Assembly: GCA_000310025.1 (NCBI GenBank)
Contig: FN649748.1
Span: 3,450,959-3,514,958 of the forward strand
Length of the DNA: 64,000 nucleotides
Origin: Ectocarpus siliculosus
Lineage: Eukaryota; Sar; Phaeophyceae; Ectocarpales; Ectocarpaceae
Direction: 5' to 3'
In this document: one piece after another, positions 7,626 to 52,835 of the stretch
Layout: each line of letters begins with the position of its first letter
Numbering within the stretch: position 1 is the stretch's first letter
Program-made: the position numbers and the translations under genes
The notes under the pieces: generated by a model
The model's database searches: none
What the model saw: only the letters and a program-made list of their open reading frames with translations
What the model was told of the DNA's origin: nothing

Positions 7626-10141
7626 TCAATCCGGCACGTATCGTGCCACTCGGTCCGTCTCTTCTCGTTTGCTTTCTTCCCTCGCCGTCTCGTCCGTCTC
7701 CTGCCCCCCTCCAACCCCATTGGTTCTTGGCTTGTGGTTTCGTTTGAGCGCTCGTTGTCGGCTGGCCTCTTCTTCCTTCTCGTGCCAGGAGGTAATGAAC
7801 CTCTCAGCTCCCTGCAGCACCGCCGCATGCCAGGTTACTCCCCCCTCCACCTTCGCGGCTTCCGTCCACCTTAACTTCGGTGCCGTGTCTTTCGGTACGG
7901 GAATTCCGAGACAACATGGATCGGTTTTCGTAGATTCGTGGTCGGCCCCGAATGCCTTCAGGTCGTCGAGCACACACTTCGGCCAGTTCTGTTCCTGTCC
8001 CGCCCTACGTGGCTTCTCCCCCCCCGCCAGCTCGCCGAGCATCAGTCGTTTCGGGAGTCGCCCGTCCGGCTGCCTTGCCAGTGCTCCCGCGAACAGTAGG
8101 CGTCGTTGTCGGATCGTGGCCTCAACGCTCTGGCATTCGACCCTCTTCAGCGTCTGGGCGTACGAGAGCTGCCGGTAGGTGTCTTTCTTGCGCTTGTACC
8201 CGATAACTCGAAGGAGCAGTCGGTGGTGTGTCGACCGCAGCGTCTGATAGTGGCCGCTGAGTGGTGACCATGTCATGCAGCCGTACAGCAGTGCCTCCAT
8301 CGCCTCCGCCTGGAGGAGGCGGATCTTGAGTCGGAATGGCGCTTTCGGTCTGTCGAAGAGCTCCTGGCCATATCGCCTGAGGCACGCCCACGCTCCTCTG
8401 CTCCTGTAGCTGATCTCCCGGGTGAGGTCGCCATGTTCGTTGACGAGGCCACCGAGGTACCGGAACTCGGTCGTCTGGGCGTATTTCTGTCCCGCGGCTT
8501 CGATGGTCAGTGGTGGAGGCGGGGGGGGCTGTATTGTTATAGTCGACTTGTCCTTCGCGCGCATCAGGAGCGTCTCCGTCTTCTTCTCCGACACCGTTAC
8601 CCCGATATCTCCGAACACCTCAACGATGATGGTCATCATTCTCGCCAGTCCTTCTGCAGACCTCGATACGACGCCGGCATCATCGGCATACAGCATCCCC
8701 CATACTGCCCTCCGTACTCGGTCAAGGGGTGTCTCCTCCCCCCCCCCGCTTCCGTCTTCCCCTCCTCCAAGCACACCAGATTCCGCAGAACAACATCATC
8801 CTCGCTGAATCGGATAACGACGACCTCGAGGACCTCGGCGAAGAAGATGTTGAACAGCAGTGGGGATAGCACACATCCTTGTCGCACGCCCTGTGTGACG
8901 AAGTACCAGTCCGATAGTTCTCCGTCGTCCATGCGCACCCGGGCCCGCATTCCATCGTGGAATTGGCGGATGACTTTCATTAGATTCGCGGGAATCCCGG
9001 CCCTGGCCAGCACCTTTCATAGCATCTCTCGGTCCACCGAATCATATGCCTTCTTCAAGTCGACGAAGCACATGTAGAGCGGTATTTTCTTTCTCCGCCC
9101 CAGCTCCTGGAGGCGACGCACGACAAACAGCATGTCGACGGTGGATCGCCCGGGTCGAAATCCGCACTGTTCCTCCGGGAGGATGTTGTTGGCTTCGCAG
9201 TAGGCGCTTAGACGGTTGGTGATGATCTTGATGGGAACCTTGCCTACGTGAGATAGTAGCGAAATCCCCCTGTAGTTGCTACAGTTGGACCGGTCACCCT
9301 TCTTGTACAGCACCTTGATGGTTGCGTCCTTCCACTCTTGGGGGATATCTCCTCCGTTCCACACCTTGACGAGGATGGTATGGAGGTGTCTCAGGACAAC
9401 GGGTTCGTCGTCATCTATCTTGAGCAACTCGGCAGCGAGGGAGTCATGGCCGGGTGCCTTCAAGTTCTTGAGGCCTTTCGCTGCCCGTGCCACCTCCTCG
9501 AGTTCTGGCATCTCTCCCAACCGTTGAGTGTCACGTGTCGCTGGCCGCTGCGTCACTCGTTCGATGATGTCTGGGTTCAGGGTGGGGGATTTGGTGTCAA
9601 GTAGGGTGCTGAAGAATCTCACCCACCGTTGGAGGATGTCGTCACTGTTCCGGAGCGACACGCCGTTCTCATCCGCGACGAACTGCTGTCCCCCCGCGTG
9701 TCTCCCGCTGAGGTCCACTGATCTCTTGAGGTATTGGTACAGTCCTCGCATGTCGCGATCTTTGTAGATTGCTTCGAGTTCAGTCACATATTCGTCCGGG
9801 TGGGCATAGATGCCTATTTTGACTGCTGTAGCCACTCCCTTACACGCTGCTTTGAGAGTTCTCCACGTTGCTGAGTTCCAGTTGCCCCTCATCGCCCGGC
9901 GCGCTTCCCGCCGTTTGGTAAGGGCCTTCTCCAGTGCTGCTCTCGTCTCTGGGGTCTCACACCACTCCTGCGTGCGGCGTCTCCGCGGTTCCTCCCCTAG
10001 GGTCGTCCGCGCTGCTTCGAGGAGAGCATTGGTAAAGTCGGTCGCCAATTCCGCGGCGGTGGTTGTTCGCTCGTCCAGTTGTGTCTCGAGGTTGAGGAGG
10101 AACCGATTAGTCACCGCACCCCGTGCTGCTTCGAACTGCAA
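7626..10141 (-). pseudogene. LINE reverse transcriptase, three broken pieces
   Basis: Piece one (10141-9017) carries the RT fingers and palm: a [13 protein letters not shown] region, [30 protein letters not shown] and [12 protein letters not shown]. An in-frame TGA at 9017-9019 follows, and the frame continues with [14 protein letters not shown] near 8880. At the C/G homopolymer near 8736-8745 the frame shifts to the last piece (to 7626), which has the catalytic LYADDAG box, an RYLG motif and a long C-terminal part ending with TGA. The residues needed for polymerisation are visible but split over frames, so this copy is dead unless the breaks are sequencing errors. Confidence 0.85.
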
Positions 10142-11280
10142 TTCCCGTCGGTTGAATTGCTGCTGTTTCGGTTTAGTCCGGACTGCACGGTCGTGGGCAA
10201 GCCTGCCACCGAGGTTGACGTGGCTACTACCATGTTGTGGTCTGAGTCTGCTTTGACTGGGCGAACCGGCTGGGGGATGACAACCACGTTAGATACTCGG
10301 CCGTGATGTGCCTGCCTTGTCAGGATGTAGGCAAAGCGCTTGCAATCGTTTCCCGACACACCGTTGTATGTGTGCCAAATTCCGCCCTTGCGTGTCTCGA
10401 AGAACGTGTTCGTGAGAGCCAGCCTGTTTTCCGTTGCGAAATTCAACAGTAGCATGCCATTGTCGTTGAGCTCATCACGCCCGTACATTCCTATTACCCT
10501 TCCGTCCCCTTCGTCCAACCTATCTCCCGTCCGCGCGTTGGCATCCAATAGGACATATACGCATCCTTTGGAAGGGATCCTCCGCACGAGACTGTCAAGT
10601 TTTCCCCAGAACACGCGCTTGCTGTCGGTGGTTGAAGGTTCGGTTGGAGCATACGCGGCTACGAAGTTGACCGCTCCACGGTGGCCTGCCAACAGAATCC
10701 TCATGGCCATTAGGCGTTCGTCGATAAACTCGGTAGTGAACGTGGATGTCTTGCACAGTGACTCTTTGACGGCTATCCCCACACCATGGACTCCACCAGT
10801 CTCCGTGCCACAGCAGAACACCCGGAAACCCGCTGCTGCAAATTCCGTTCGACCTGCCCTCCGTGTCTCCTGCATTCCTACCACCGACACGTCTTGTCTC
10901 GCTGCCTCGTGTAGAATGCTGTAGGCTCGCCCGTATCCATTGGCCCCGTTTACAGCCAAAGTCCGCACATTCCAGGTTGCTACCCTAAGAAGTTGACCCT
11001 GCTGTCTCTTTCGCGCGGCGCGCGCTGCTCTCTTAGCTAGCCTACGCGCCGCCCGACCCCTCCTTCTCCTCCATCTCCCCCTCTTTTTTTGTTTTTTTGC
11101 TTTTTTTTTGCGAACACTCGGGCTAAGACGATAGTTACCCCGGTTCTTGCCTTGTTTCCCATAGAGTTGTCTTCTTGTCCCGGAGCGGTGTGGCCCTCCA
11201 TCTCTGGACTCTCTCCTTTCCTCTCTCTGGGGGTCAATGCGGCGTCCTGAGACGGCTGGCGAGCTGATGCAAGTCCTCAC
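10111..11280 (-). pseudogene. LINE apurinic-type endonuclease domain
   Basis: After a very basic N-terminal stretch (Lys/Arg-rich, about 40 residues) the frame shows the endonuclease-exonuclease-phosphatase signature: ATWNVRTL near residue 106, GMQETRR, VAAYAPTE, VLLDANAR and [10 protein letters not shown] near the end. These carry the metal-binding Asn and Glu and the catalytic Asp and His of the family. The listed start is a GTG immediately after a stop, so the true start is uncertain. The frame overlaps the next one at 10111-10141, where the reading frame changes; in most LINEs endonuclease and RT are one protein, so this is probably a frameshift. Confidence 0.8.
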
Positions 11281-18665: not shown

Positions 18666-20853
18666 ACACCCTACAGAAGACAAACGGAGACAAATATGTG
18701 CGGGAAGGCACAAAGCGGTCAATGTTGGAACGCATGGAAACGTGTGTTGTGTGGGCGGAAACCAAAGCTGTTTGTTTCTTCACAAAGAGTATGCTGATTC
18801 ATTTTTGGTCGACAAGGGCACCGTGTCCAATTTTCCAAAAACGTTTGGCGGTTGAAAGTACACTTTAGGGAGAACAAAAAATGTGCAAAGCAGCAGAATT
18901 GAAAATTAATCAGGGTGATATGGAGATGCCAGCTGCAAACAAAGCTGCGGCATTTCCACGACACACAATGGCATGCAGGAACAAGAATCAAACACAAAAA
19001 ACAACTTCAAATGTGTACAATTCCGACGAATGGCCATAAAAATACTACAAACGAAACAATTACGAAATGTGCACGCAACGACAGAATCATTGTCCGGGAG
19101 CGTGTGGCAAAAAAAGCCACATGCACACGAAATAACTCTCATAATGTGTATGGGAACATATGGCGCAAAAAAAAAAAAAAAATTTCACGAACCCTGGAGT
19201 GTGCGGGTGGTGCAAAAGCCAACCCACAATTGCACGTTTCGAGACCACACGCGGACTGATACTTCGCCAAATCCACGAAGCACATATATACTCACTTGGA
19301 TCGCTCTTCCGTGCCGACGGAAGTGCTGGGCTCTTAGTCCACCATGTCCACAACCAGCTGAGATGCTTTATTGGTGGGCGTTGACTCGTCTGCTGCGGTG
19401 CTCGTACGTGCTGCTGAGAGCAAGAGAGCAACTGGCTGCTGCTGAGGCGATGTGGAGGCTGTCATGTTGGCGCCTGTTGCTGCTCCAGCTCCTGCTGCTG
19501 TTAGATCAGCAGGAGCAGGAGTAGGAGCCTCTTGCGTAGAGGTGTGCGCGGGCCCAAAGAAGGAGGTGATCTGCTGTGGCGCCTGCGCTGCTTCAGTCGA
19601 AGCAGTTGTCGAAGGAGCGGAGGTAATTGCGGCTGCATTCTGCTCTGCCTACACGTTCATGTTGTTGGGGGTCTCCGTGCGGGGTGTTTCCACGCACACA
19701 GCTGACGCGGTTGTGTGTGTGATTGCTCAGGACAGATGCTGTCACCCCAGTGATAAAGAAGGAGGGGCCCCGTGGCTATATGCGGCGTAACTAAAAATAT
19801 CATGGGGTGTGTTATCTTTTATGTACCCCCGGTGATAAATCGATGGTTTGTCAGAAGCGCCCAAAACTATCACCGGGGTGTCGTATTCTGTGGGGGTGTG
19901 CTTTCTTATGTAGGTGTGTTATCTTGTGTCATATACGGTAAGTTTATGCCACTATGTAGTTCAAGCGACACACAAACCACAGGACACACGCACGCACACA
20001 CGGCACAGGCAGGAGGGAGTATCGGCGCACAGCCCGGCTCTTGTTGTTTTATAGGGCGAAAAGTTGATGATAGGTGTTGTTTCCTAGGGGCGAAAACTGA
20101 TTCCTGCCCTGTCGCCATGGTAGTTATTGGGCGGCAAGATTGGCCGTTTGGTATCCCATGGTTGGAGGGCAAAAGGATTTGGGAAGATTCCTGCGGAGGA
20201 AGTGGTTGATGAAAGAATTTTATTCTCCGTCAGTTCAGGGTACTTTGCCGAAAAACAGGATACAATTTTTGAGAAAAATAGCCACGGCAGGGTCTAAATC
20301 AATCTCTGCCACTCACGTGACAGTCCCGTGAATGACCTACAAGATAAACGAAAATGTATGATTCCTACACTAAACTCAAGTAAAGCCCCTTGCCAACATC
20401 TACCGCATAAAGAATCTGAATTTTCGGCCATCTGGTGGCGTTTCGGGCCACTTTTAGTGGTGAAGAATGATTTTGAGGTTGGGTTTTTAGGTTGAGTTTT
20501 CCCCATAACCCAACCTGAAAACCCAACCTCAAACTAATAATACTGCCTTTCCCTGACACCAAATCCTCGCAGCAGCCATCCAACTCATCAGCAAATCACT
20601 TGCAACTGCCACCGCCCACACTCGACCCCTCGACCACCCCACCTACTCCCTGGAAAGCAGTCACGGGGCACCTGTTACCTAAAAACCCAACCTCAAAGTT
20701 TAAAGCTGACTAAATCAATCTTCACGCCACCCATCTAACACATCATATCCCACCACCTCTTTCCATACCAACACCCAGACACACAAACGTTGTGACACCC
20801 ACATTGCACTCATACACGTGAATTTAACCCATCCATGTCTCACCAGGTAAAAC
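18666..20853. other. Non-coding stretch with an inverted repeat
   Basis: Apart from the possible exon at 19.3-19.7 kb no gene is supported. An inverted repeat at 20472-20535 is built from TTGAGGTTGGGTTTT on one side and AAACCCAACCTCAA-like sequence on the other. The same AACCCAACCTGAA motif forms the minisatellite inside intron 3 of the next gene and recurs near 20683. Confidence 0.5.
19330..19690 (-). other. Possible N-terminal exon of the pogo-like transposase
   Basis: The minus strand is open and shows PQQITSFFGP followed by an Ala/Thr/Pro-rich chain ending in a stop near 19340. An ITSFFG-type peptide is common near the start of several transposase families. The spacing upstream of the Pro-Ala exon fits, but I could not define splice sites, so this is only a suggestion. 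Confidence 0.25.
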
Positions 20854-21908
20854 ATGGGCAGGAAAAGGGGGAGGCAGCGTGGCAAAAACAAGAAGCAGAT
20901 GATGAGCAAGAAGGGGGGGAGGCAGCTCTGCAAAAACATAAAGAACGTCCCGGCGACCCCGAAGCTTTGCGACAACAGCCGCGTGTACTTCACGACTAAG
21001 GGGGCGCAGTACATGGCGCTGGACGTCGGTGGCGTCGGTCTGTGTGCTCTTCTCGGCGTCATCGCTGTGGCGATGGACGACGTAGGAACCCCTTGTGAGG
21101 AGATTTTCGAAGCCGTCAGCGGCGAGCTCACAGACGTCATGACGGAGTACGTCCAGTCCCTCCGAGCCAACATCGTCAGCACGTGCGGCGACCAGTTCGC
21201 CTTCAAGGACGGTGAAGAGCTGGCTAGCTTCGACGACATCGTCCACGACCCGATGTGGGTGATTGCGACGAGGGCGATGTGGGAGCTGGTGACACTTCAT
21301 CCAACTGGATATCTCGACGGAAGGGCGGTGTGGCTGTTGGCGAAGTTCCTCGGGTTGCACGGATTTAGGATAGTCAAGCACGAAGACGGCCACTTGGTCT
21401 CATGTGATGCCGGGGGTCCCATCTCCTCCGAAGAGTGCCCCATGATGCTGCACGACGGCTACGGGCACTTCAAGGCCCTGATTCCACTTCGAAGAATGCC
21501 ACTGGTAAGTCTCGTCTGTTTTTAATTGTATGTGTGCGCGTACATGATATGATCCGTGATATTTTTTATTTGAATTTAAAAACATATTTGAAGTTCACAC
21601 TGCTCACGTTTGGCCAACGCATGGTTTGTTTTGCCACCCCCCTTCAGGAGTTCCAGATAAATCAAGAGTACCATTTGCTTCTCGAAGAGAGTTTCGTGGA
21701 CGTCACCGATGAGGAGGAGGCCGTTCCGGGGACGTCGGATTTGGAGACTTCGGACGGCACCGACGAGGTCCCTGAATCAGCTGTCGCGGTAGATGTAGCC
21801 GGCACGGAGGCGTCTGATGGTGGATCGATGCCGAGCGCCCAATCGTCTGGTTCCGGTGGGGGCGACAGTGACCTGGGGGCACGTGGAGCGTTTGGCGAAG
21901 ATGCTGAG
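20854..21908 (+). CDS. Exons 1-2: OTU-like cysteine protease domain (putative)
   Basis: After a Lys/Arg-rich start (MGRKRGRQRGKNKK), exon 1 has ALDVGGVGLCALLGVIAVAM, which aligns with the DG.CLF.A nucleophile helix of OTU proteases, with Cys kept but the usual Asp-Gly not exact. It continues with SLRANIV and a GYLDGRAVWLLAKFLGLHGFRI strand-helix, and ends with DGYGHFKALIP, which matches the catalytic-His HY..L motif. Intron 1 (21505-21647) splits at a phase-0 junction. Exon 2 opens EFQINQEYHLLLEESF and becomes acidic and Ser/Gly-rich. OTU enzymes remove ubiquitin-like modifiers; whether this one is active cannot be said from sequence alone. Confidence 0.5.
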
Positions 21909-24900
21909 GTGCGCCTTGTTCGTTAATTCTCCTTGTGTAAAATTCTCCATAAAAAATAGTCGTCTAGTGGTCCGAACCACCGCATCGTTGTTGACAGACA
22001 GCAGCCATAGCACTGAACATACAAATCCATGGTCTCATTTCGTTGATTGAAAAATAGGGAGAAGAGGTAAAAGCGGCTACCCGTGTGTCCAGCAAGAGGA
22101 GCCAACCATGGGACGACAACGAGTATTGGGATGACGACGCCAACTACTACTCGGGTTGCACCATAGTTGGCGAAGACGGGTGGACTCTCGTCGGCAAGGA
22201 AGGTCGGCGAATGGGGTTGGAGACAACCTTGGCCTTCGACGAAGTGAGTCCCTGATACCCCAACCTGAAATACCAACCTGAAAACCAAACCTGAAAACCC
22301 AACCTGAAAACCCAACCTGAAAACCCAACCTGAAAACCCAACCTGAAATACCAACCTGAAATACCAACCTGAAAACCCAACCTGAAAACCAACCTGAAAC
22401 ACCAACCTGAAATACCAACCTGAAAACCCAACCTGAAAACCCAACCTGAAATACCAACCTGAAAACCCAATGCTTTTCGTGAACACAGGCCTCGGGTTTG
22501 TACGACCTCACCAGTCCGAACAAATGCCAGCCTTTGTTCCTAGACCACGATGACGAAACCGATGAGAACGAAGCAGCGGAGGTGGACGAGGCTGTGGACG
22601 AGGTGGGCGAAGATGAAGCCGCAGAGGAGGTTGACGAGGACGAGGAGGCTGAGGCCGAGGCTGGAGAGGAGGTGCAGCAGACTATCGTCGTACACGAAGG
22701 AATCACGATTTCCCCCTGGATGCTGGCTTTCTTTCTGCCGCTTCTGCTCGCCGTTGGGGCCGCTCTTTTCCTGGTGTTTCAGGCAGCCGTGACCTCTACC
22801 ACCGTACTCCTTCGCATCGGCGAGGCATTCGCGTCGGTCAGCAACAACGGCAGCAACTCTGCCAACAACAACAAGTGCAGCTCTCGTCGGCGGCGTGCAG
22901 CTCGTCGTCGCAAGACTGGTCGCACGGGGATCGCGGGGATCGGCAGAATTCTGAAATGCAGATTTGCAGGAGGGAGACGCTTCCGTCCTGCAAGGAGTCG
23001 TCGCAACGGAAGAGGTTTCTGGGCACGTGGTCAGAGGAGGAGTGAAGGCGAGCTTCTTGTGATGGACGATGATTCTGCACGCATCTTCGGAATGGTGCTG
23101 GCGTTTCTGCGGGGAGGAGCGAAGTCGGGTGACCAACAACAGGTGTGTGCGTGTACCAGTTGATTTGTATTTTCATCACGCGACAAAACGGCAAGTCAAA
23201 CAAGACACTTAATTTCTCCGAATGCTTGCTTGGTCGTTCCATCCCCGTCGTCCCATCCTTTCTCGCAGACACAAGGGAGGCCAAAAAGGGACAGGCGTCC
23301 AGCAGGGGGGGTATTTGCCCCCGGTTGGGCACCCGATCCTGCCCCAAACGCGCGCAACGACAGCGCGAGAGAGTCCGAGGAGGATGGTGAAGATAGTGAA
23401 GACTCCGGGGATGCAGATGATGTCGCGTCTCTGGATGGAGTCAGCGATGGCAAAGAGTCTGAAGAAGATGAAGAGGACTCCGATGAAGACTCCGGTAAAG
23501 GACCTCGTGGTGCTGGTGGGGGAGCGGGTGGTGTGGCGTCAGCGGGTGATAAAAACTCCGATTTAGAGGACTCCGGGTATGCTCCCAGCGAGGCCGGCGA
23601 CACCGATGGAGACAACGACGAAGATACCACCAGCGACGAGTGTTCCTCCACCGGCGGGGAAACTCGCTGCGAGGGGTGCGAAGAAGACTTCTATTGTGAA
23701 CTGGTGGAGTGCCCCACGTGCAATGCGAAGTATTGTCAGGACTGCGAGAACGACTTGTCTTCTGACAAAGAGGTGAGCTGAACTCGTGGTAGTAATGAGC
23801 AGGTGAGGGCCGAAACCAAACTATATGCGCACAAAAGCTTCAAAAGAAAACCCCGACCAAGCTTGTTTTTTCCTGTTTTGTTCTTCCTTGTTTTTTCACC
23901 GAACCACAGCGAACGTATTCTAGGTGTCAGCGAGCGGACGATGATGGTGTTGGTGATTTTTCGACTGGGGGGGTCACCGATGGACCGGATGAGTACACCG
24001 ACACAGAAAGTGGTAGCGTCTCTGGAAACTCCAAGCGACGTCGTCGATCTGCGGGGAAGAAAGATAATTGCATTCCAAGAACTTCTAGCCCGAGAGAGTT
24101 GTTGATGGTGCCTAAAGACGACCAGCAGGCGAAACTTATGTTAAGTCTATACCGCAAAGCCCGCGAGATGGAACGGAAACTTGCAGGAAAAACAAGAGAA
24201 TCAAGGAGGTAAGGAACCTCACCCTCCTCGACCTCACGGAAGCAGCAAGCTGCTTGGCCAAGGGTAGTCCCGTAAGAGAAGAGATCTGGCGGAAGTGCGA
24301 AAAGGAGAACTACGCCCTGTACGGTATCACCGTGCGTCGAGCCGGGCCAACCGGTGAGACCATTCCGGGGACCAAGGTTACATCAGACAAGGGTAGGCGG
24401 GGAGAGGTCGTGGAGGCAAAGATGGATGAAGGATACACCGTGTTCACCGTCGAGTGGTCGGAAGGCAAGAGCAACAGACGCAGCGCATATTCTACGGAGG
24501 ACGTGCTTCGTACTCGCGATGATAACCAGGGCGTGGCGACACTTGAGGAGGCGAAGGAGAAAATGGGGGTGTTTCTACTTGCAACCTTGTGTGTTGTCAA
24601 CGTCCAGGTTTACCGATTCATTACCAAGAACACCAAGTTGGAGACTGTGTCAGTGTCAAGTGAGACACGCCCCCTGTCCCGGGATATAAAAGTTGATATT
24701 ATAAAAGGCCGGAATCACGCCTGGGAGGAGACGAAGAAAGCTCGTGCGGTGGACATGCTCATGGACAATGAAGTCACGTTCTTGGACTCCTCTGAGGACA
24801 AAGGCTTGCGGGTGGAGATGGAAGAATCATCGTGCTTCGAAATGATGGGATTGATCAACGACGCCAGAGCTCACTTCACGGGTCTCGTGAGAAGCACGGA

Positions 24901-27208
24901 AGGTTTCCAAGACAAGCATCTAGCTTTCGTCAACCACTTTGTGAGGGGGGCGCAGGCGTCCTTTCGGCTGGGTCGACCCACCAACATGGCGTCGTCCATG
25001 ATCCATCTTTCGGTGAACGAGCTTCCTCCCGGAGTCCAGGCCAAAACATTGAAGGAACAAGACACTCAGTTGTATCAACCCGGTGAGCCGACGTCTTTTG
25101 GCCTGGGGATGAGGTGTGTCTTGGCGAGGGCACGGGTGAAGGATTCAGAATAGTTTGGTGACGGGGGATCTTCGACCTACCAGTTTCTGATGAGGTATCC
25201 GTTGTACAGGCTTCTGGATCTTTCCCGGGCTGATAACCTTCCTCTGTGTCCGACAACGGAGCATTCGAATCATGTTTCACCAGCACTTCGCCACAGAGAT
25301 GCGTACAGTCAAGCGTTTTCTTCGCACAGTAAGCGGAAAGCGGATTTGGACGTGTTTGACATAATCAAGGGGGGATATCATTCTGTGTCGCAAGAGAAGC
25401 GGTCCGAAAAAAGTGTGATAGAGAATGAAAACGAGAGGATCGCATTTGGTGCGAAGTTCAATAAAGGCAGGACGCACTTGGTGGGAAGCGATGAATGTCT
25501 GCTAGGGTTTCTTTTACTTGAAGAACTCGTGTCTCGCAATGGGATAGACTCGTTCATGGAGAAGTTACCCAACAAGGATGATATTGTCAAGATGTGCAAT
25601 GAAGTACTTGAGATGAACCCACGCAAGCGCGAGAACGAGGATCATCTTTGTCCACCGAAGTTCAAACTGAGGATTGAAGCGATCGTCGATGAACTGGTAG
25701 AAGGAAACAAGGTTACCAGATCGGATATTTCGTTGCTTAGTTGCTCTTTAACGGTGTTGGATTCTCTGCTTACCGCTGCCCTTGGAAAGCAAGACATTTT
25801 GGGACAGCTTGCAAAAGATTTGTACCGAATGAAGTGCAAGGACGTTCATGGCAACGACATTGCTATTACCCGATGTCTTCTTCCCCGTTACTTCAAAAAC
25901 AAGAAGGCACTCGAGAATTCCACGGTAGTTGTGAACCATACAAAACATGAGAAGTGTGAGGGGGCGTATGCGGTTATGGCAGTCATTGGGAGGAAGGTGA
26001 TGCGAAGGCTTCTTGAGAAGGAGGCGGAAAAGGACTTGGCAGAGCTCAGAAAGAAAGGGGGGTGTACCGAGAAAGACTTCGAGAGGGTGGCCGAGTCGTA
26101 TTCTCTTACACCCCATTTGGGTCCCTTTGACGACAAAGGTTGTGTCTTCACACCCAGTCAAGTGACGGGTATGTACAAATGGTTGGGGCAGCGCACAATG
26201 GGCCTTTCGCATTTTGGCACTCACATCATCCGCAGTAATCACGCGACGGCGGTGGCGATGTACTGTGTGAGGACAGGGCTGTCGCACGATGACCAGGCGG
26301 TGAAGGATTTGTTTGCTTTGGCGAGACACGGTGATAAGCAGAGGATTCGGTTTTATACGAAAGTCAAAGGTGATACGCCAAATTCGTGTGATTTCCTGAC
26401 TAATTTAAGTGGTGCCCTTCCCTCACTTCGTCGCCTCGGGGAGGGGGGGTGAGTCAAGACTTCTGAGAAAAAGGTGGCGTCACTGAGTGATGTTGAAGTA
26501 GGTCTTTCGGGTCTCTTTGCCTTCGAGGATGCTGAGTTCGACAAATCCGGGGCGTTGGCACGTGGGAAACCGATGATGGGTGACGGGGCATATAGAAAGT
26601 TGGATGTGGTCGAGATGGATGATGAAGAGAAGGACTTGGTAAGGCAGGAGCGAAAGGCTACCAGGAAAGCTAATATTGCGATTGAAGAAAAACGGGAGAA
26701 AGAGGCCAAGACGGCCCTGTATGAAAATAAGGTGGACACCGGTGCGAAGTCGGGTGGTCGGAAGAAGGGGGGAGTTCGCGCTGACAAGCTTGAGTATCGC
26801 AAGAGTGCGTTTGCCAAAATAAATCAGTTGGTTTTGAACGCAAGTAAGCTGAAAAGGTTGGAAAAGGGCAAGAAGCCCAAGCGGATGACGTTGGAGTACA
26901 GTTTGAAGAATGATCAAAAGACCGTTAGAGTTGCGTTCCACGACAACGTCAAGCGATTTTTACACTCGGCGAATCCTGGGGAGAAGGACTTTTTGGATGG
27001 ATTTTATTTGAATTTGATCGACGGGAAAAGTAGGCCCGGGCGTAAAGCAGTTGCTTACGCGAGGGAACATCGGATTGAGTGGAGTTACCACGATTGGTCT
27101 ACTGGGAATGTTTGTGTTAGCGTACCACAGGAGAAAAAGGGTGGTAAGAAGAGGAAGTTGGTTGGAGGGGGGGGTGTACTCATAGTCGTGCATGCCGTAG
27201 TCGTTTGA
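20854..27208 (+). CDS. Large multi-exon gene: OTU-like domain to tyrosine recombinase
   Basis: Exons I can place: 20854-21504, 21648-21908, 22058-22243, 22489-23142, 23269-23772, and 23910 onward. All five introns between them are GT-AG and phase 0, which is strong internal support for one protein. The product would be about 1,800 residues: basic N-terminus, OTU-like domain, acidic linkers, a hydrophobic segment, an Arg-rich block, a Cys cluster, a novel middle part and a tyrosine recombinase. The frame after 24190 needs either a short intron or one extra base. TAG at 25151 could lie in an 81-base intron; TGA at 26450 has no good explanation. I infer a recombinase-driven mobile element (Crypton-like), probably decaying. 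Ends and target site are not identified. Confidence 0.65.
22058..23772 (+). CDS. Exons 3-5: acidic, hydrophobic, Arg-rich and Cys-cluster segments
   Basis: Exon 3 (22058-22243) is acidic and aromatic (WDDNEYWDDDANYY). Exon 4 (22489-23142) starts with about 50 residues rich in Glu/Asp, then a 25-30 residue hydrophobic run (PWMLAFFLPLLLAVGAALFL), then an Arg-dense block (SSRRRRAARRRK). Exon 5 (23269-23772) is again acidic and ends with a Cys cluster, RCEGCEEDFYCELVECPTC then KYCQDCE, reminiscent of a RING or PHD-like zinc site. All three exons are open throughout and join in phase 0. I do not recognise the family. A membrane anchor is possible but the neighbouring charge makes a buried helix equally likely. 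Confidence 0.5.
22255..22475 (+). repeat. Minisatellite inside intron 3
   Basis: Roughly sixteen short units of CCAACCTGAAAACC and CCAACCTGAAATA type fill nearly all of the intron between donor GTGAGT at 22244 and acceptor ACACAG at 22483-22488. The repeat is open in several frames on the minus strand and produces spurious reading frames of 100-200 codons. Confidence 0.85.
25195..26452 (+). CDS. Tyrosine recombinase/integrase domain
   Basis: The C-terminal half shows the family's catalytic box: LSHFGTHIIRSNHATAVAM (H-x-x-R followed by xxHAT, as in the HxLRHsFAT of XerC/D-type enzymes), then LFALARHGDKQRIRFYTKV (the second His with the nucleophile Tyr ten residues on, followed by TKV). Upstream, VVVNHTKHEKCEGAYAV suits the beta-hairpin Lys. 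The first catalytic Arg, expected in a G-x-R-x-x-E helix, is not obvious: the best-placed segment reads LGKQDILGQL. Such enzymes cut and rejoin DNA through a 3'-phosphotyrosine and drive Crypton and DIRS-type elements. Neighbouring context contains no RT or RNase H, favouring a DNA element. Confidence 0.7.
26453..27208 (+). CDS. C-terminal extension after the recombinase (same frame, beyond a TGA)
   Basis: Beyond the TGA at 26450-26452 the identical frame stays open for 251 codons to a TGA ending at 27208. It is charged and helical-looking (VVEMDDEEKDLVRQERKA, then a Lys/Arg-rich middle), with an aromatic segment EHRIEWSYHDWSTGNV and a final basic cluster KKGGKKRKL that could be a nuclear-localisation signal. 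Cryptons often carry a DNA-binding domain after the recombinase, which may be its role. The TGA falls inside GGGGTGAGT, a good-looking splice donor, but no acceptor in the right phase is apparent. Confidence 0.45.
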   Translation, partial: VKTSEKKVASLSDVEVGLSGLFAFEDAEFDKSGALARGKPMMGDGAYRKLDVVEMDDEEKDLVRQERKATRKANIAIEEKREKEAKTALYENKVDTGAKSGGRKKGGVRADKLEYRKSAFAKINQLVLNASKLKRLEKGKKPKRMTLEYSLKNDQKTVRVAFHDNVKRFLHSANPGEKDFLDGFYLNLIDGKSRPGRKAVAYAREHRIEWSYHDWSTGNVCVSVPQEKKGGKKRKLVGGGGVLIVVHAVVV

Positions 27209-29223
27209 CCATTGACCTCGCATCCCTACAAAGCCGGGACGGAGCACGCCGGGTTCTCACCGGACCAGGCTCTCACATCACCAAGCGCGAAGCGCCGTGA
27301 GGTATTTGGCGAGTCGCATGAAGGGTGAGCTGCATCCTGCTAAGGGTGTTCGGCATCTTGTGCTTACTTCCTTGCGTACGGATGACAGCTACGTATGACT
27401 TAATTTATTTTCTGGTGCATCCACTTCCAGAGACAGTTGTAAGCACTGTGTAACTGCCTCGAGGAAGCTTGACCATTTTAACACAACGTGGTGCGATCAT
27501 CCCCCGTTGCGCGGAGTAAGGGTTCTCGACCCCGCACAACATAATCTACTCGACCACCATTATGGTTACCGCCAAAAAAAAAACCGAGGTAAAAAAAAAA
27601 AAACGGTAACCTGGTTGCCGAGTTCACGAAGTGAGTTGGCTTGTTTTACAACGTCGTTGCCAAGCGACGAAAACCCAATCCCGATGGCAAACACCGAGTG
27701 GGGGGCTTGTTTTACAACGTCGTTGCCAAGCGACGAAAACCCAAACCCCGATGGCAAACACCGGGGGGGGCGGCTTGTTTTACAACGTCGTTGCCAAGCG
27801 ACGAAAACCCAAACCCCGATGGCAAACAAGGCCGACGGGGGGGGGGGGGAAGGGGAGGGTTAGTGATGGCCAGGAACGTTCTTTTACGTACCTTTCAGGT
27901 TTGAAATTTAACCTGGGTTCCGGGGTCATTGTGACACAGCACAAAAAAAAAAAATGCCAAACATTTTCAATTTCAGCTTTAATTCAAGTTTGAAACCAGT
28001 TCCGGGTGATACAGCAGTACTGCACGCACACGAATCCTTTTCTAAATGGCGTTCTCGGCCCGCACGCAAAGTTCAGGTATAGGTGTATCGCCTGGCAAAT
28101 ATTGTGCACCTCGTTAGTGTTCCTTTGCCAGAAAGTGAAGAGCTCGGCGTCGGAGATTTTTTTTTTTGTTTCTTGGTAGATCTCAACTTTACCCCACGTT
28201 CAATGCACCGCAAGACGTCTCTACCCCTTTCGTGGGCTACCTCTGCGCTGCCACCTCGGCCGCTACATATCAGTTCTCGCAGTTAGAACCCAAATCAATT
28301 GGTTCGCCCGCCTTAGTCTGCGTCTCCGGTTCAAACCGAGCAGCATGCCAAATGGATTTAGATTTCATGCAGTGTAAGCATCAATTCCCCGACGAAAGCT
28401 TTGCGGCGCCGTCGATCTTCTTAGATGGAGTATTTGGTCCGGCCGACAGCCCTTGTCAGGAAACAGACTTGAGTGCAGATTACAGCTAAACTCATTCCTT
28501 CTGAGTGCAGGATATATCATCCCTTCCGAGCAAAGCAAAAGGCCCCCAGAAAGCCACCGACCCGACTCTACCAAAGCCTCCTGCTATTCATCGAAAACAG
28601 TCATGAAACAAGTAAAATGCGCTGAATTCGCACAACTTCAGTTTTCGCCACTTCTTGTGCTCGTTAAATTCACGTCGCCCCTAGATTGCAATCTCCCGTT
28701 GGAGCACGCCTGAAGCGCTATTAGCGCCCATTCATGGACCCGATTCTCGCTCCGGTATTGCTACCGGCTTCATTTGCGCTTCAGATCATGTTGCTGCGCC
28801 TAGTCGGCCGATGACGCGCGAGAACCAAGACCAAAGATCTACACTGACCACGTAAATTATTTATGGAACATATGAGCACACTTTCTAGTGGTGACTGCGT
28901 GCGTGCGGGAGAGCACAAGCAGTGGCCCCTCGATCGATCACGTCATGCCACTACTCCAACACTCAGATGACCTCATCTTGTACCACCGGTCTGAAGGCTA
29001 TACGCACCGTCCCATACGAACAGTCTCCGGAAAAAATAGGATACTCTTCTGCAACAGCTTCAACGCAAGCATGCTCACGTTACTTCCTTCCGGAAATTCC
29101 AGAGCAACAGGCAATACAACCAATACTAGCAGAACCCCCCAAATACTTGCATGAACGAAACAAGTTGGCGTCAATTTCCGTGTCATTGACGAAACAAATT
29201 CATGGACGCGTGACGCTGTCGAC
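27209..29223. other. Non-coding stretch with A-runs and a minisatellite
   Basis: A-rich runs interrupted by GGTAACC/GGTTACC near 27563-27612 form a small inverted pair. Reading frames at 28166-28489 and elsewhere have no recognisable composition. No gene is supported. Confidence 0.45.
27638..27829 (+). repeat. Minisatellite, three units of 64-68 bp
   Basis: Three near-identical units start GGCTTGTTTTACAACGTCG at 27638, 27704 and 27772 and end near GATGGCAAACA. Each unit contains GTCGTTGCCAAGCGACG, itself close to a palindrome (CGTCG...CGACG). Variation is limited to the G-run between units and an AATCC/AAACC difference. Confidence 0.85.
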
Positions 29224-32200
29224 TCACGAACTCACGAACTGGTCTATGTTATGTGTCCTGACCCATGCCCACTCTACACCACGCCCACCCCTGTCCACCA
29301 GCTGCATGGCCGTGTCGAAGCTAGGGAAGGGAGACTTCCCCTTGACCGTTCCATCCACCTCGAAGCTTCTACACATATCCTTCAGCTGGTCGTAAGCATA
29401 CCCCTGCAAAGGGGCAGGGCGCACCTGGAACAAGAGGCAAGGAATGCAGTGAGTCGTTTAGGGTGTGTCACAGGAAACAACGTATGCGAGCGTTAGGCCA
29501 TTGAAGCGTGTCATTTCGTCCATTTGAAAGGCACTGCCGCCCACGCCGTTGGGCAAGTCAACGATAGGCGACGCGACGCCGCTCACCTTGCCGATTTCCA
29601 ACCCTTGACGAGAACGTCGTGAAAACGAGAGAAAGTATAGAATTATGCAATCATGTACACGTCCACCCCCTCACCAAGAGCTCGTGTTCCGACAATCTCC
29701 AGTATCAGAGGACTTCACTGCAACGGATCGAAAGCGCCACTCATTGACTGGCCCTTACCTGTTGTGGCCGTGGCCCTCCCGCCGGCCTGGCGCCTTCAAG
29801 TCCCTCCCCAGAGACGCTCGCCATCTTCTCGATTCCGGAGCAAAACGCTTCCTCGACGAAGTCGATTGAGCGCGATCGAAGCAAGCGCCAACCCCACCTT
29901 AGCCGAGGGTATCGTTTTCTTCGCCCAGCTCAGCAGTTCCTTCACCTGATCGATGATGTGGAGATGGTAGATTCAGCATCTGTTGTGATTCGCAAGGGAG
30001 CCCACCCTTTTCCGGAGACATGGGTTCTAATAAATCAGAAGACGAGCACAATCAAGATGACATCTTGCCCTACATAGGAGCGAAAAAAATAAAACGCCCC
30101 ACCTAAATGACACCGTGCCCTGGAAGCCACAAAAGGCAAACGCCAACCAACCCAGCCAGTAATCGAAACGCCGCAAAGCAGCACAGAGGTGAAAACATGG
30201 GGCCCTTCCCAGGAACAAGTGCCCAGTGCTCCACGGCGGCTACCCACCTCGTACCCTTGCCCGCCTCTCCCGCACTCGGCAAGGCTCATGTCCTGCGGGC
30301 ACAGGAAGAACACGCGCAGCTCTCGCGTGGCACATCTTCTGCCCCCCTTTTTGCCGCTGCGGACCCAGCCGTCCAGAAGGGCTGACCACTTCTCGAATGA
30401 CCTGTCGATCTCCGTGAGGGGCTCCCGACCCTTCTCGGGGGCGGGGAGGACGCATACCAGGCGGGGGATGGGCCACCTGTGCTTCCAGCGGAAGTGTGTT
30501 GCGACGGAATACAGTGTTGTTTGTGCCGAAAAATCGTTGAGTCCTTTGGGAAATCGTTGGCGATTTGCGAAATGTGACTGGAGCGCAGGCCGGGTGGTAG
30601 TTTGCAGCCAGAGGTGACGACTGTTAGCGAGCGCTGAATATCGCAAAATCTGTGGTACATTTAAGGGAATTTAAGGGATCGAACACCAACCGCTACTACC
30701 CAACCTTGATTCACAGAATCGCCCTCTATTCTGCGGAAATACCCCAGATTCTAGATGGAAATCACACAAAACGGGATTAAATTGTATCATGTCGAATATA
30801 GAAGAGAGAGAACTTCATGGTACATAGCTTGGAGTTCACTTGTGCGGTTGGCACTGGCACCGGCCAAGAAGGAACAATACGCCGCCTTGCATGCAAAGCT
30901 TGCTTAGTGTCGGCTAAAAGCTTCAAAGTGCAGCAACGTATGCTCGCCACAGCTCTCTTCTCGTTTGTCTTCTACATAAATGTCTCCTAATTTTTGGAGA
31001 ACTCGAGGTGGTGGCTCAAAACATTTGACTTTGCAATCTCTTCCTGCAGTCCCTTCCATCCCGCAAACGTACTGCGCCTGAGTTTTCAAGTCCTAGCCGC
31101 CCATGAGGATGGAGTGTACCGTTTCCATCGCAAGGGTGTAAGAAGGGTCAATCCCACGCCTGAAGTTATGTGCCCGAGCGATCACGCCGATGTGCAGAAA
31201 AAATAAGACGATGATGTGGCTGAGAATGAACAAACAATGAAAAGAAGCATACCGCAGGAAGGCCACGTCCTGTGCCACGCCTCTCAGAATCCTCCTCTCC
31301 GTCGCCCTAGAATCGTCTTGGCTCAAATCGACGTCGATAGCGCCTTCTGGACAATGGCTTCCACGCTGACCACAATCTTCTCCACGTTCGAGTCCAGCTT
31401 AAGGCTGACGTCGCGTTGCATGTCTGACTTAAGGGTGCTGAGCTGCTTGGCCAAGGCTTCATCAGTGCCCAAGTTTTGAGCTCCGACAGCGGCCAGGATT
31501 TGATTGAGCACGATCTCGAGGTTCTGATCAAGCTGTACGGCCCCAAGCGAGCAGTGGGCAAGGTCAGCACCGCAAACACTCAGGACACAAACCTAAACAT
31601 GCGCTCTATGCTGCGCAGAACTCGGGGAACAAAAAACGCACTAAACGGAATATCCCCCGTCACATCTGGTAGGTGCACGGAAAAAACAAGAAAGCGTCAG
31701 ATAGATATCCCAATTGCATTCACCACGGGAATGGACACACAAGAACGGGAGAGAGGGGGGTGGAAAAATGGGCATTCCATCGGCGGATAACCACATACGC
31801 CTGACCGTACAAAAAACTTCAACCTTCGAGCGCGTCTGAGCTTCGTCACCTTTTCCAGCAAGTCCCTCTCCAACGCCGCTAAGCTGTCTTGCCATGCATC
31901 GGGCCCGGTCATGTACGTCGGGTTCATCGACGCGTCGAACAGCAGGCCCGGGTATTTCTCTTCCAGGAGCTGCACCACTTTCTCTTTTATCTCGAACCCA
32001 ACGGCGGACACGTCGCTCTTCCCAGTGCCACCGATATTGATCTCGATGAAACACCGGGGCTCGGTAGAAGCTCTGGCTCTTCCTGGGCTTACAAGGTTCT
32101 CGCCCCGACTAATGAGGCACTCCCGCCCGGCCGCCTCAAACGACACCCCTCGAGACCAGGAGGTGTGGAACACTAAATTTCGGAAGATTTCAACCCTGCT

Positions 32201-33150
32201 GCGACCGAAGGCGCCCAGGAACTGCGCGATGATCGCCGGTGGCACGTAATCTGCGCGGATTTCGATCACGAACTGCATGCGGATGCCACGGGATACCGCT
32301 TCCTGTAGTTTCGCCAGGGACGCCTCCGCGACGCTGCCCGGAAGCCGAGCGGGCACCATGAACTACCCGGCGCCCCCTCCGACCGCACAGTCATCGCACG
32401 GGAACATGGCATTGTGCAAAGCCATCATCTCTACCAGGCGGCCGAAGACCAACTCGTCTACGTCCTTCACAACATTCCTCCACAGAAAACGAAGGTACTC
32501 GGTCGTGAGCAACCCCGTTGGGGAGAAGCGACTGCGTGAGAAAGGGCCCGACACCGGGATGACAAGTCAGTTTACGCAGAATTCACACGGAATCCAGAGA
32601 GTGATGGATAGGCGCCCCGTGATATGAATGGATGGGCAAGAAAAATTCCCACAACAGTAACCCCCGCATCGTGCATTTTGTACCATTCACCACGTCTCGT
32701 ATTACAACAAGGTCGAAAGATGATAAACCGGACGTGGGACACAGTGCTGCTACTACTACAGCAAGGAGAGACGGAAACCGATAGAATCGCTGCTTTGGTA
32801 GAAAAAACAATTTTGTGACGAGTCAGAGGGAGCTTCATTTTTTAAAAATTGCGCCCCACTTTACGAGCTCACAAAATAATTGGGTTCAACTTTTCGCCAG
32901 TTTGGAACGTATACCCTAACGGCCATATTGGTTATTAACCGAAGCTGCCAGCCAAGGTAGGTAGGTCCCAAGATGAAAGTAAGTCCAAAAAGATGCATCC
33001 ATCAGTCAATCCCCACCTGTGGATTTCCACGAGTCTGTTGAACCTGAAACCACGCTCAAGACTGTATGCGTCAAGCTGCTCCCGCCACCACTGTGCCTGA
33101 CGATACCAATCAGAGGGAAACAGCAGCAAAAAATATGTCGATGGAGTCAC
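29224..33150 (-). pseudogene. ROCO-type (COR domain) GTPase remnant, C-terminal part
   Basis: Minus-strand exons can be followed from about 33150 down. The best piece (about 32550-31850) reads LLTTEYLRFLWRNVVKDVDEL..., then, after an in-frame TAG at 32363, FMVPARLPGS...IRADYVPPAIIAQFLGAF, which resembles the COR domain of ROCO proteins. Then come a probable coiled segment (31511-31323) with a frame change near 31340, PRLVCVLPAPEKGREPLTEIDRS (about 30470), ALASIALNFVEEAF (about 29860), FQMDEMTRFNGLTLAYV (about 29520) and, after acceptor TTCCAG, VRPAPLQGYAYDQLKDMC to a TGA at 29224. Leucine-rich repeats and the Roc GTPase, expected further 5', are not seen. ROCO LRR-GTPases are a known expanded, often pseudogenised family in Ectocarpus. 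The nonsense codon and frame change suggest a pseudogene. Confidence 0.5.
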
Positions 33151-35127
33151 GTCCTCTCACAGAAGGTTGCTGCCGCATGCCCCCAAATCCCGCCTGCCTG
33201 CGTTACTTAATGTTTGGGCGCGTTGCAGATCAGGAACAGGGTTCACGGGAAGGAACCCAGCTACATCGTGGTCAGCTTCATCGGAGGCATTTTCAAAAAC
33301 GGGGATTTTTTTTGTACCCTCCCCGCTTTCTGCGTTTCGATTCTTAGCCACTGGAATTACTAGTATTCGTTGAAACCCGGGCAAGATGAACGAACTTTTT
33401 CTCAAATTTTGCACATCCTAACTTTATCACAGGACCATGCAAAAAGCATTTCGAGGGTTGAGATGTAGATGGGAAGAATTTACGGAACCCCCCCGCCAAA
33501 TGTTGAGCTTTAGCGCGGAACCCGCCCTCGGTGAATCCGTGACAAAACCCATCCCGAAATGATTTTGGTAATAGCATGTCTACACCACCTCGGCGAAATA
33601 GACAAACAACATTCCACTATTCGAAACAACAAAAACACTCACGGAACGAATTTTGAAGCCGATACATCGAGGAGAGACGCACCCGAGTCCTTTCAAAAAA
33701 GGACAGGAGTACATCGGTCACTGAATGTGCTCAAGGACGCCCGCGGAAATGAGCAGGTTGATAACAGACGCCGACGTGCTTGTGCGTGCGTCGCTGATAT
33801 TTTCGGTTTGACTCGGAGGAACTTTACATTGGACACAAGCAAACAAACACATCGCTGCTGCTCCTTCAATTCAAATGTGCCTGCACCTCCAACTCGCCGC
33901 TACGTGTGCGTGTCCTCCTGTCGGTGGTCTGGCTGTTGGTGGTCTGGCGGTGGTGAATAAAGCTGTGTGCCGCTAGCGACAGATCTGCGTGTAGAATACT
34001 CTGACTGTTCGCGTCGCGCGGATTCGGCTTAAAAAAAAGTGCAAGAGAGGCATTTCTGTGTGTAAACGGTCACACAGACGTTACGATCTACCTCATAGAA
34101 TTCCGACGTAGAACACTATATATAGCAGTGCTCTCCTCGGGCACATCAGAGGTGTGCAATTAGACTATGCATTGTTGGAGCGTACTCACAGGAGAGCAGG
34201 TTTTCGCCGACACGCAGAGAACGCAGAGAACGCCCCAGAGGATTGAACGAAGACGATGAACACCGCAATGTAGGAACACACCTGTTGATAGAAAGCGATG
34301 AGCGAGTGGGACAAAGAGAGGGCTACAAGGCACCCGCTCGGGCGGTGGGCGGTGGGTGCGGTGTGCCTGAATCCCACCCCAGTACCAGTACGGATCAGTA
34401 TCAATCGTTTCCTTCGCTTCTAGACGTGGATCTCTCACAGCACCTGTCGCCTTTCCGACATTTGCAGCAGGTCCCACATAACCGTGCAGGTGAGTGAGCC
34501 CCCTTCTTGGTGTGAGTATGTTGACACGGGCTGATGGTCTATAAGGGAAGGACGTCGTTGAAAAGTGGAGAGATGAAACACCGCGCATCTTAGTTAATTT
34601 TGTTGCGAGACTATGTTCAGTTCCCTCTTTGGGTAGCCTTCGTGTTGGGTGCTTGGGGTTTCATTGGAAACATCGATGCCTTGGGACGCGGAGTATCCCA
34701 TTTCGCGGGTGAGATTTGGTCATTAGCAGCACCGGTGTACACATGTATGTCACGGGGTTACGCGTAGACAATCTCTTGAAGCCTGAAGACCCTTGTTGAA
34801 GACCCACTTGGTTTATTAATGCGGGCAGCAGCTTGTTGTAGCTCTCGCAGCGTGGATGGCATGGACCGAAGTATGGACCCGCAACAAAAAAATCAGCCGG
34901 CAGTACGAGTGGTGCTCACGTGCTCACACCTCATACCACAACTCGAATGGCTCTTCATTTGAAAGTTCAGCCGTTTAGGGCTTTTCCGGAAAAAAAATTG
35001 TCGTTAGGTACTACAGCAAGCCGTCGACGTAGCATACAGGAAGAAGGTGCGGGTGTTTGGGGCGCGGGGCTAGGCAGGTGTTTTGGGATTGCCTGCCCCG
35101 TCAACGCCAATCTACAGCAGATATCGC
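33151..35127. other. No supportable gene
   Basis: Short frames on both strands. If the ROCO gene were complete its GTPase and repeat exons should lie here, but I find neither a P-loop nor leucine-rich repeats before the gap. Confidence 0.45.
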
Positions 35128-35227
35128 NNNNNNNNNNNNNNNNNNNNNNNNNNNNNNNNNNNNNNNNNNNNNNNNNNNNNNNNNNNNNNNNNNNNNNNNN
35201 NNNNNNNNNNNNNNNNNNNNNNNNNNN
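35128..35227. other. Assembly gap, 100 N
   Basis: Exactly 100 N, so the true length is unknown. The gap cuts the OTU-like reading frame on its left side. Confidence 0.99.
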
Positions 35228-51293: not shown

Positions 51294-52835
51294 TCACAGA
51301 AAGCCTACCACCAAACGGAATAAGCCGTCAGCCTCCAGTCCGACCAGCCTGGTGACCAAACCCCTTAAGTCCACCATCATCTGGTCTTCCGTCTCCCTCT
51401 CACCCCCACCCGAGTCCTCGCCGCTGAACCTCGCCAGCTTGGTGGAGTTACCGTTGCTGCTGCTGCTGCTGCCGACACTGCTGCCGCTCCTATTTTCGTT
51501 TGCAATCTTCACCCTGGTCGGGCAGGAACGGCTCAGCACCAGCCAGCTGCGGCGACGCCACGACCTGTCGGCTGGAGCGCGTGCCAACATTTGGTGAATG
51601 CGCTGGCCGTCGGCCTCGATGTCACCATGGTCGCTACCGACATCGCCCGACGTTCCTATCATGTCTGCAGGGGTTACATCGCCATCGTCCGTGAGCTTCT
51701 CATCTGCTCCCCAACGCAACAGAAGCTCCACAGCCGCCACACTCGAATATGTGCAAGCTTCATGCAGTGGTGTCCGGTCCTCAATGTCACGCACATTGAC
51801 ATCCGCCCCTCCTTCCAACAGGGCGCGGATCGTGCCGGTCGATGGTACCCGACCACAAACGGCAATATGGAGAGGCGCACAGCGCAAGTGGTCGTCGGTA
51901 GTCTTGGCGTGGACATCAGCCCCAGCTGCCAAGAGTACACGGACGGCATCGCCCTTGTCACGGCCATGTACTTCAATGAGTGCAGCATGGTGTAGGGCTG
52001 TGTATCCGTAATGATCGGTGGCGTTGACTAGACTAGTGTCCGTGTCTAGGAAGGCTTTCACGATGGTCGCGTGACCTCTGTTTGCAGCGATCTCAAGCGG
52101 AGAATCGTCACCGTTGTGGGTACGGCCCCGGGTGGCACCGGCAGCTAGAAGCTCTTCGACAGCTCCGAGGTGGTTGTTTTCTGCCGCCTTGAACAGTGGC
52201 GTTTTATTTCCCTTATCGCTCACGTCCTTGTCTGCGCCGCCCAGCAAAAGTTCAGCGATGCATAGCTTATGGCCCTTGGAAGCAGCGAGATGGAGGGACG
52301 TGTCGCCGGCACGCGTCTTGGCGTCTACATCGGCCCCTTTCAGAAGAAGGATACCTATGACTCGGTCGTGCCCTGCTGTGGCGGCGAGGTGGAGCGGACT
52401 TTGTTTCCTGCCACCACGCAGGTTCGGATTTGCTCCAGCTATCATGAGCGCCTTGGAGGCCTCCTCTGCACCCCGCGCCGCCGCAAGGTGAAGAGCGGAC
52501 TCGCGTTTAGCCCCGAAGAGGACGTTTACATCACTCTTCGCACCCGCGGTGAGCAGAGCCCGTAAGATCTTCTTGTTTTTGCTGCATGCAGCCGCGCCCA
52601 GCAGCGTTCGTCCATCGCAACCCCGCCAGCCTGCTTCCGCGCTGGCACCGGCGTCCATCAGCCTTGTGAAGAGACCCAAGTTTCCGCTGGCCGCGGCGTG
52701 CTCGAGCGGTGCTCGAAGCCACTCCTTCCACTGCTTCGAGGTCGCCTCTCTTTGGACGAGCTTGAAAATCTCCACCTCAAAGCCATCGACACGAGTTCGA
52801 TCTTGAGATTGTTGTGAAGCAGCTGCTGATGCCAT
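51294..52835 (-). CDS. Ankyrin-repeat protein, 513 aa, single exon
   Basis: I chose the ATG at 52835 (MASAAASQQSQDRTRVDGFEVEIFKL) rather than the upstream one at 53060, whose extra 75 residues look non-coding. About ten ankyrin repeats follow between residues 40 and 410 with typical spelling (SALHLAAARGAEEASKALMIAGANPN; SPLHLAATAGHDRVIGILLLKGADVD; TPLHEACTYSSVAAVELLLRWGAD). A Trp-Arg-rich region (DRSWRRRSWLVLSR), a Ser/Asn-rich linker and a conserved-looking hydrophobic end (VGLEADGLFRLVVGFL) complete it, ending in TGA. Ankyrin stacks bind partner proteins; the partner is unknown. No signal peptide, no introns, no frame breaks. Confidence 0.9.
   Translation of the reverse strand: MASAAASQQSQDRTRVDGFEVEIFKLVQREATSKQWKEWLRAPLEHAAASGNLGLFTRLMDAGASAEAGWRGCDGRTLLGAAACSKNKKILRALLTAGAKSDVNVLFGAKRESALHLAAARGAEEASKALMIAGANPNLRGGRKQSPLHLAATAGHDRVIGILLLKGADVDAKTRAGDTSLHLAASKGHKLCIAELLLGGADKDVSDKGNKTPLFKAAENNHLGAVEELLAAGATRGRTHNGDDSPLEIAANRGHATIVKAFLDTDTSLVNATDHYGYTALHHAALIEVHGRDKGDAVRVLLAAGADVHAKTTDDHLRCAPLHIAVCGRVPSTGTIRALLEGGADVNVRDIEDRTPLHEACTYSSVAAVELLLRWGADEKLTDDGDVTPADMIGTSGDVGSDHGDIEADGQRIHQMLARAPADRSWRRRSWLVLSRSCPTRVKIANENRSGSSVGSSSSSNGNSTKLARFSGEDSGGGERETEDQMMVDLRGLVTRLVGLEADGLFRLVVGFL

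Follow-up and report, generated by a model that had tools for sequence, protein, structure and literature searches.

A probable tyrosine-recombinase DNA transposon of Ectocarpus siliculosus, represented by a dead copy whose spliced gene also encodes a predicted OTU-like protease domain

In the available portions of the published accounts, CryptonS and the oomycete CryptonF are described as stramenopile DNA transposons that encode a tyrosine recombinase (YR), and some members also have an Ulp1 (C48) cysteine peptidase, which lies on an additional protein in CryptonS and occurs in addition to the YR in oomycete CryptonF (PMC3212892). In Ginger1, a single and often intron-containing gene encodes a DDE integrase together with an OTU-like domain; the same article mentions Helitrons with OTU domains, and its authors propose a possible action of these domains on the repair system while transposition takes place (PMC2836005). 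Here we describe a locus in the 189-Mb genome (492 contigs) of the brown alga Ectocarpus siliculosus, at which one spliced gene has an OTU-like cysteine-protease domain at its N-terminus and a YR-like domain at its C-terminus. The gene lies at positions 20854-27174 of a 64,000-nucleotide stretch of contig C23 (C23:3450959-3514958; hereafter the window), and other copies are named after their contigs. The EsV-1-7 cysteine motif, which is expanded in brown algae, gave at least 150 matches in this genome, these being the 150 scored among 880 candidates, in keeping with a brown alga. We regard the window locus as probably a dead copy of a DNA transposon moved by a tyrosine recombinase, Crypton-like in mechanism, in which the fused OTU-like domain is most likely deubiquitinating.

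The OTU-like and YR-like segments belong to one gene, because the last exon is in frame with the recombinase in C84, C25, C16 and C24, across the point at which the window copy is broken. The stop-to-stop frames of this exon run from 13262 to 16357 in C84 and from 12710 to 15970 in C24 (joined coordinates). The recombinase exon of C24 is open to a stop and that of C84 is open until its own frame change near the end, while in C25 and C16 damage lies further along the exon. Neither the window's frame change near 24205 nor its stops at 25151 and 26450 are found in any other copy read there, and since C84, C25 and C16 read through the position of the TGA at 26450-26452, this codon represents damage. 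A preliminary description of this DNA had proposed that one gene joins both domains, which the frame continuity in the four relatives bears out. Introns at 24209-24253 and before 25195 are ruled out, since C84, C25 and C24 read through both stretches as in-frame coding sequence; C16 also stays in frame across 24209, with a stop about 25 codons beyond. Two separate genes are likewise ruled out by the frame continuity, and a programmed frameshift at 24205 by the fact that the relatives need none. The gene end formerly put at 27208 also had to be moved, as a nested repeat beginning near 27170-27174 supplies the last 11-14 residues of the window's open reading frame (ORF) together with the stop at 27208. 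The window copy is dead: its frame is shifted once and interrupted by two in-frame stops, box I has lost its arginine, and a nested insertion covers the 3' end.

The exon chain (Table 1) has five introns, all of phase 0, of 143, 149, 245, 126 and 137 bp, with in-frame stops in every one. The comparison of splice sites covered all five near copies (window, C84, C16, C27 and C25) apart from introns 4 and 5 of C27, which is cut short by an assembly gap in exon 4. GT was found at 23/23 donors and AG at 22/23 acceptors, the sole miss being the intron 2 acceptor of C16 (TG in place of AG). Thus 45 of the 46 sites are kept, in agreement with the five GT-AG phase-0 introns originally proposed, and the motifs GVGLCALL, DGYGHFKALIP, HIIR..HAT and ARHGDKQRIRFY picked out at that stage are all present in the window gene. 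The tandem array that occupies intron 3 is built of a 13-bp motif, CCAACCTGAAAA, which recurs as an inverted repeat at window 20472-20533, near the left end of the element.

Judged from its conserved residues, the C-terminal domain is very probably a tyrosine recombinase. Arg, Lys, the HxxR box, His and Tyr occur in order and are kept in both C84 and C24, whose recombinase exons are 52 per cent identical. A third, more distant lineage, C11, has its recombinase downstream of its own OTU-like exon (profile match E 1.1e-68, in a small ORF set) and keeps R, K, H and Y, with Asn for His in HxxR. When six sequences were compared at box I, Gly was found in the window only. An hhalign comparison of the catalytic part, including C11, with 74 XerD-like integrases gave a score of 23.0 (probability 3.6 per cent; 1/100 column-shuffled decoys as high) and paired HIIRSNHAT with HVLRHAFAT, the HxxR boxes of the two alignments. 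A strict YR pattern was matched by 0/5000 shuffles, and a loose pentad pattern in identical columns was present in the real alignment and in 16/5000 column shuffles, the strict pattern and the loose gap ranges both having been set after the sequence was seen. The pentad pattern was also matched, with shorter gaps, by 70 of the 74 XerD-like integrases; the YR call does not rest on these residue patterns alone. As an indication of selection, the ratio of nonsynonymous (dN) to synonymous (dS) substitution relative to C24 was 0.193 for C84, 0.193 for C25 and 0.152 for C16, with dS saturated at 1.8-2.4, and among near copies the recombinase gave ratios of 0.10-0.49.

The OTU-like exon 1 occurs at 12 distinct loci in the genome (from 15 rows). 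At six of the 12 (C23, C84, C25, C16, C24 and C11) it is followed by the recombinase in the same order, that is, in four of the five near copies, C27 stopping at the assembly gap, and in both C24 and C11. C14 and C31 were read only ~1.5 kb beyond the OTU-like exon. The presence of both domains in three lineages within one genome, two of them as divergent as C84 and C24 and the third more distant, could mean that the fusion is old and has been maintained. Between its OTU-like exon and recombinase, the C24 copy (L033/L008) has PEAMDVGGEQQ repeats, unlike the window copy, and a stretch that we take to resemble an HMG box. The C11 lineage (L206:2-805) shows a PHD-finger-like Cys/His stretch, for which Pfam gave only a sub-threshold LRRNT match. 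Searches for relatives among viral contigs (208 stretches) and prokaryote genomes (282 stretches) confirmed 0 in either, in collections that hold few eukaryotes.

The N-terminal domain is likely to be OTU-like or another papain-like deubiquitinase, as its residues and the register of its profile matches suggest. The catalytic Cys and a His-Phe pair are invariant across five aligned members, and the domain has the OTU features of a Cys after a Gly-rich turn and a late His followed by an aromatic residue. Closer to textbook OTUs are L014 and L016, with NRGQGDCGPL and NHFEAMVP; in L015 (C31), a near twin of L014, the catalytic Cys position is changed and the Cys lost. Aligned by hhalign with the genome's own OTU domains, the family paired its Cys motif with theirs in an 18-column match, which scored 19.8 at a probability of 1.6 per cent (1/100 decoys as high). 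The best PDB sequence match was to a pseudo deubiquitinase, 6k6l (E 0.036 and 0.073), while a PDB sequence search with the recombinase-like domain gave nothing relevant. The annotation of 6k6l, its motif NGQGECALIALANVLL, which we take to be MINDY-like, and the failure of PF02338 to find the family would all fit a domain from some other papain-like cysteine protease family, such as MINDY. This assignment, which is compatible with the rest of the reading, is unlikely given that the five PF04424 matches fall together at a single site on C33, outside this OTU-like family, and that hhalign sets the Cys motif in register with OTU domains. Somewhat less likely again is a polyprotein in which the N-terminal protease is a processing enzyme that cleaves the product so as to release the recombinase from a protease/hydrophobic part. 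Such a scheme would suit the very long product and the low-complexity acidic linkers and hydrophobic stretch between the domains, but OTU-type enzymes act on ubiquitin.

A number of results weigh against these identifications and against an intact fused gene. Pfam gave no match in window exon 1 or in four other members scanned, nor, PF00589 included, to the YR-like domain in the window pieces and the C24 and C84 exons; PHROGs gave no integrase match, and a genome-wide PF02338 search gave 25 places, none of them this OTU-like family. Both hhalign probabilities given above are low, and that for the whole recombinase alignment without C11 was 0.4 per cent. Shuffles of C84 alone met the loose pentad in 227 of 5000 cases. 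AlphaFold models from single window sequences were unusable, with confidence scores (predicted local distance difference test, pLDDT) of 34.0 and 36.8, the recombinase piece giving 34. For exon 1, window versus C16, dN was 0.027 and dS 0.032, indicating little constraint in what is one pair of decaying copies. No recombinase was found downstream in C13 (19 kb read), C8 or C220 (~6 kb each). None of the copies compared could be followed undamaged over the whole gene, from its first ATG to the final stop: two bases are missing just before the first donor in C84 and C27, frame changes occur in C84, C25 and C16, and the middle exons of C24 are not resolved. The OTU and recombinase identities first suggested stand in part. 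Catalytic residues are conserved and the weak hhalign matches are in register, whereas the profile searches against Pfam, PHROGs and PF02338 gave no match, which the preliminary description had named as an adverse outcome. Both names, YR and OTU, are retained on two grounds: divergent lineages keep the catalytic residues, and the strongest local profile matches fall in register.

The element is mobile, since five copies have alike left ends with five different flanks, and C25 and C422 share a right end; the earlier suggestion of a mobile element is upheld by these abrupt ends. The ~5 bases before AAATC at the left ends are GGTCT in three copies, GGTAC in one and GTTCC in one, and this GGT-like sequence, seen at the five left ends, is a candidate target. 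A search with the left 576 bases recovered the same five copies nearly full-length, together with shorter matches on C112, C15, C19, C13 and C23. The right end was found in C25 and C422 only, which run together to ...GTGTTGCGGATCAGATG and then diverge. The sole copy with both ends is that of C25, which measures 10,412 bp, including a nested repeat of ~540 bp and ~1.1 kb missing from C422; "large", as the element had been called, overstates this length. Its 3' part contains 356-bp tandem units and differs from the 3' part of the window and C84 copies. The 5.9-kb insertion inside the window element (28338-34262) has three scanned ORFs, which gave no Pfam match. No terminal inverted repeats or long direct repeats were found to pair the left and right ends of C25 (words of 7; repeats below ~11 bp would be missed), and no terminal direct repeat of 5 bp was seen by eye in this copy. 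Pfam recognised no reverse transcriptase, RNase H, DDE transposase or viral gene in the pieces scanned, namely six gene pieces, the recombinase exons of both C24 and C84, exon 2 and, among the 3' ORFs of ≥90 aa, nine (6/12 from C25 and 3/3 from C84).

These ends make it very improbable that segmental duplication of a host multigene family, with no transposon involved, gave rise to the copies. The copies are few, their dN/dS indicates constraint, and C23 and C84 have a common 3' sequence not found elsewhere, all of which such a family could display; against it, the left end is abrupt in five copies with unrelated flanks and the right end is abrupt in two. Least probable is a degraded DIRS/Ngaro-type retrotransposon with an overlooked reverse transcriptase: elements of this type, which are frequent in Ectocarpus, also code for YRs (PMC12477816), but the pieces scanned gave no reverse transcriptase or RNase H match, the gene is spliced, and no long repeats pair the ends of the C25 element.

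Table 1. Features of the gene and of the element in the window
Feature	Position	Strand	Remarks
Left end of element	20290..20300	+	GGTCT followed by AAATCAATCTCTGCC...; homology of five copies starts here, five unrelated flanks
Exon 1	20854..21504	+	OTU-like cysteine protease domain; Cys codon 21043-21045, His codon 21466-21468; Cys/His invariant in 5 members
Exon 2	21648..21908	+	acidic/Ser linker; no Pfam match
Exon 3	22058..22243	+	splice sites kept in copies
Intron 3	22244..22488	+	13-bp tandem array at 22260-22470
Exon 4	22489..23142	+	acidic stretch; hydrophobic stretch 22708-22812; Arg-rich stretch 22876-23040
Exon 5	23269..23772	+	acidic; Cys-rich end 23641-23745; no Pfam match over cut-off
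Exon 6	23910..27174	+	linker and YR-like domain; broken by frame change near 24205, TAG 25151-25153, TGA 26450-26452
Box I catalytic position	25784..25786	+	Gly in window copy; Arg in C84, C24, C25, C16, C11
Candidate beta-strand catalytic Lys	25943..25945	+	aligned lineages
HxxR motif	26222..26233	+	NxxR in C11
Putative catalytic His (ARHG)	26327..26329	+	aligned lineages
Candidate nucleophile Tyr	26354..26356	+	aligned lineages
Nested repeat over gene's 3' end	27174..27848		related copies in or near C25, C27, C16, C24, C13 loci
3' noncoding part	27848..28078	+	common to C84, C25, C422; part of ~356-bp tandem unit in C25
Second nested insertion	28338..34262		not in C84
Remaining 3' region	34262..35127	+	common to C84 only; right end lost at N gap 35128-35227

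Elsewhere in the window, overlapping frames at 9020-11280 (minus strand) that encode domains of a reverse transcriptase and an endonuclease are probably a remnant of a retrotransposon without long terminal repeats, and a 595-aa open frame of ankyrin repeats lies at 51297-53081 (minus strand).

Among the described systems, Cryptons and Ginger1 are the nearest to the transposon proposed here. Like Cryptons, it relies on a YR for mobility, lacks terminal inverted repeats and long direct repeats and has a stramenopile host, and some Cryptons also have a cysteine peptidase (PMC3212892); in both, the YR comes without a reverse transcriptase or DDE transposase match, here by Pfam in the pieces scanned. 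It differs from Cryptons in having an OTU-like protease, encoded with the YR by a single gene of six exons, a fusion that the CryptonF peptidase may or may not share. The fungal and stramenopile Crypton groups have 4-6 bp terminal direct repeats, and the fact that none of 5 bp was seen by eye in C25, the one copy with both ends, is a possible further difference. In sequence, the recombinase matched no known YR family, with Cryptons compared by description. As in Ginger1, a mobility enzyme and an OTU-like domain share a gene with introns; Ginger1 has a DDE integrase, a C-terminal OTU domain and terminal inverted repeats (PMC2836005), in contrast to the YR and N-terminal OTU-like domain of the present gene. 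The DIRS/Ngaro and ALOG-type YR retrotransposons of Ectocarpus are likewise YR elements of a brown alga, but have a reverse transcriptase (PMC12477816, PMC3537659), of which none was found here. Within the same genome, long frames at L211 (C26:2227860) and L212 (C103:3984) join a helicase, PIF1/Helitron-like by eye, to an OTU domain, so that OTU domains ride on another transposon class as well. These also link an OTU domain to a transposon protein, but the partner is a helicase and their OTU domain exceeds the PF02338 cut-off, whereas PF02338 does not find the OTU-like exon 1.

In the mechanism we envisage, the recombinase would cut both ends of the element via its tyrosine. By analogy with Cryptons (PMC3212892), the element would then leave as a circle and re-insert at short GGT-like sites, recombining at short matching sequences. 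The OTU-like domain would most likely remove ubiquitin, whether from the recombinase or from host proteins bound to the joint DNA molecule, which would let the recombinase persist long enough to finish. As the preliminary description anticipated in calling the type unrecognised, the element matches no described family that could be compared. More tentatively, it could represent a new eukaryotic superfamily of DNA transposons with a YR, without sequence relationship to either Cryptons or DIRS elements and encoding a single multi-exon protein with its own deubiquitinase.

Ubiquitin or SUMO proteases are recorded with DDE transposases (Ginger1, Mutator) and Helitrons (PMC2836005) and with stramenopile Cryptons (PMC3212892), and in the available parts of the open-access literature searched we recognised no description of an OTU-like domain fused to a tyrosine recombinase. 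The main text of a curated Ectocarpus repeat survey covers DIRS elements and leaves Cryptons unmentioned, and this element could already be among the families that the survey classes as 'DNA/Unknown' (51) or 'Unknown' (94) (PMC12477816). The present findings may add YR DNA transposons to brown algae. If true, the association of an OTU-like domain with a tyrosine recombinase would be a further pairing of this kind with a mechanistically unrelated mobility enzyme, and would make the idea that transposition needs deubiquitination testable.

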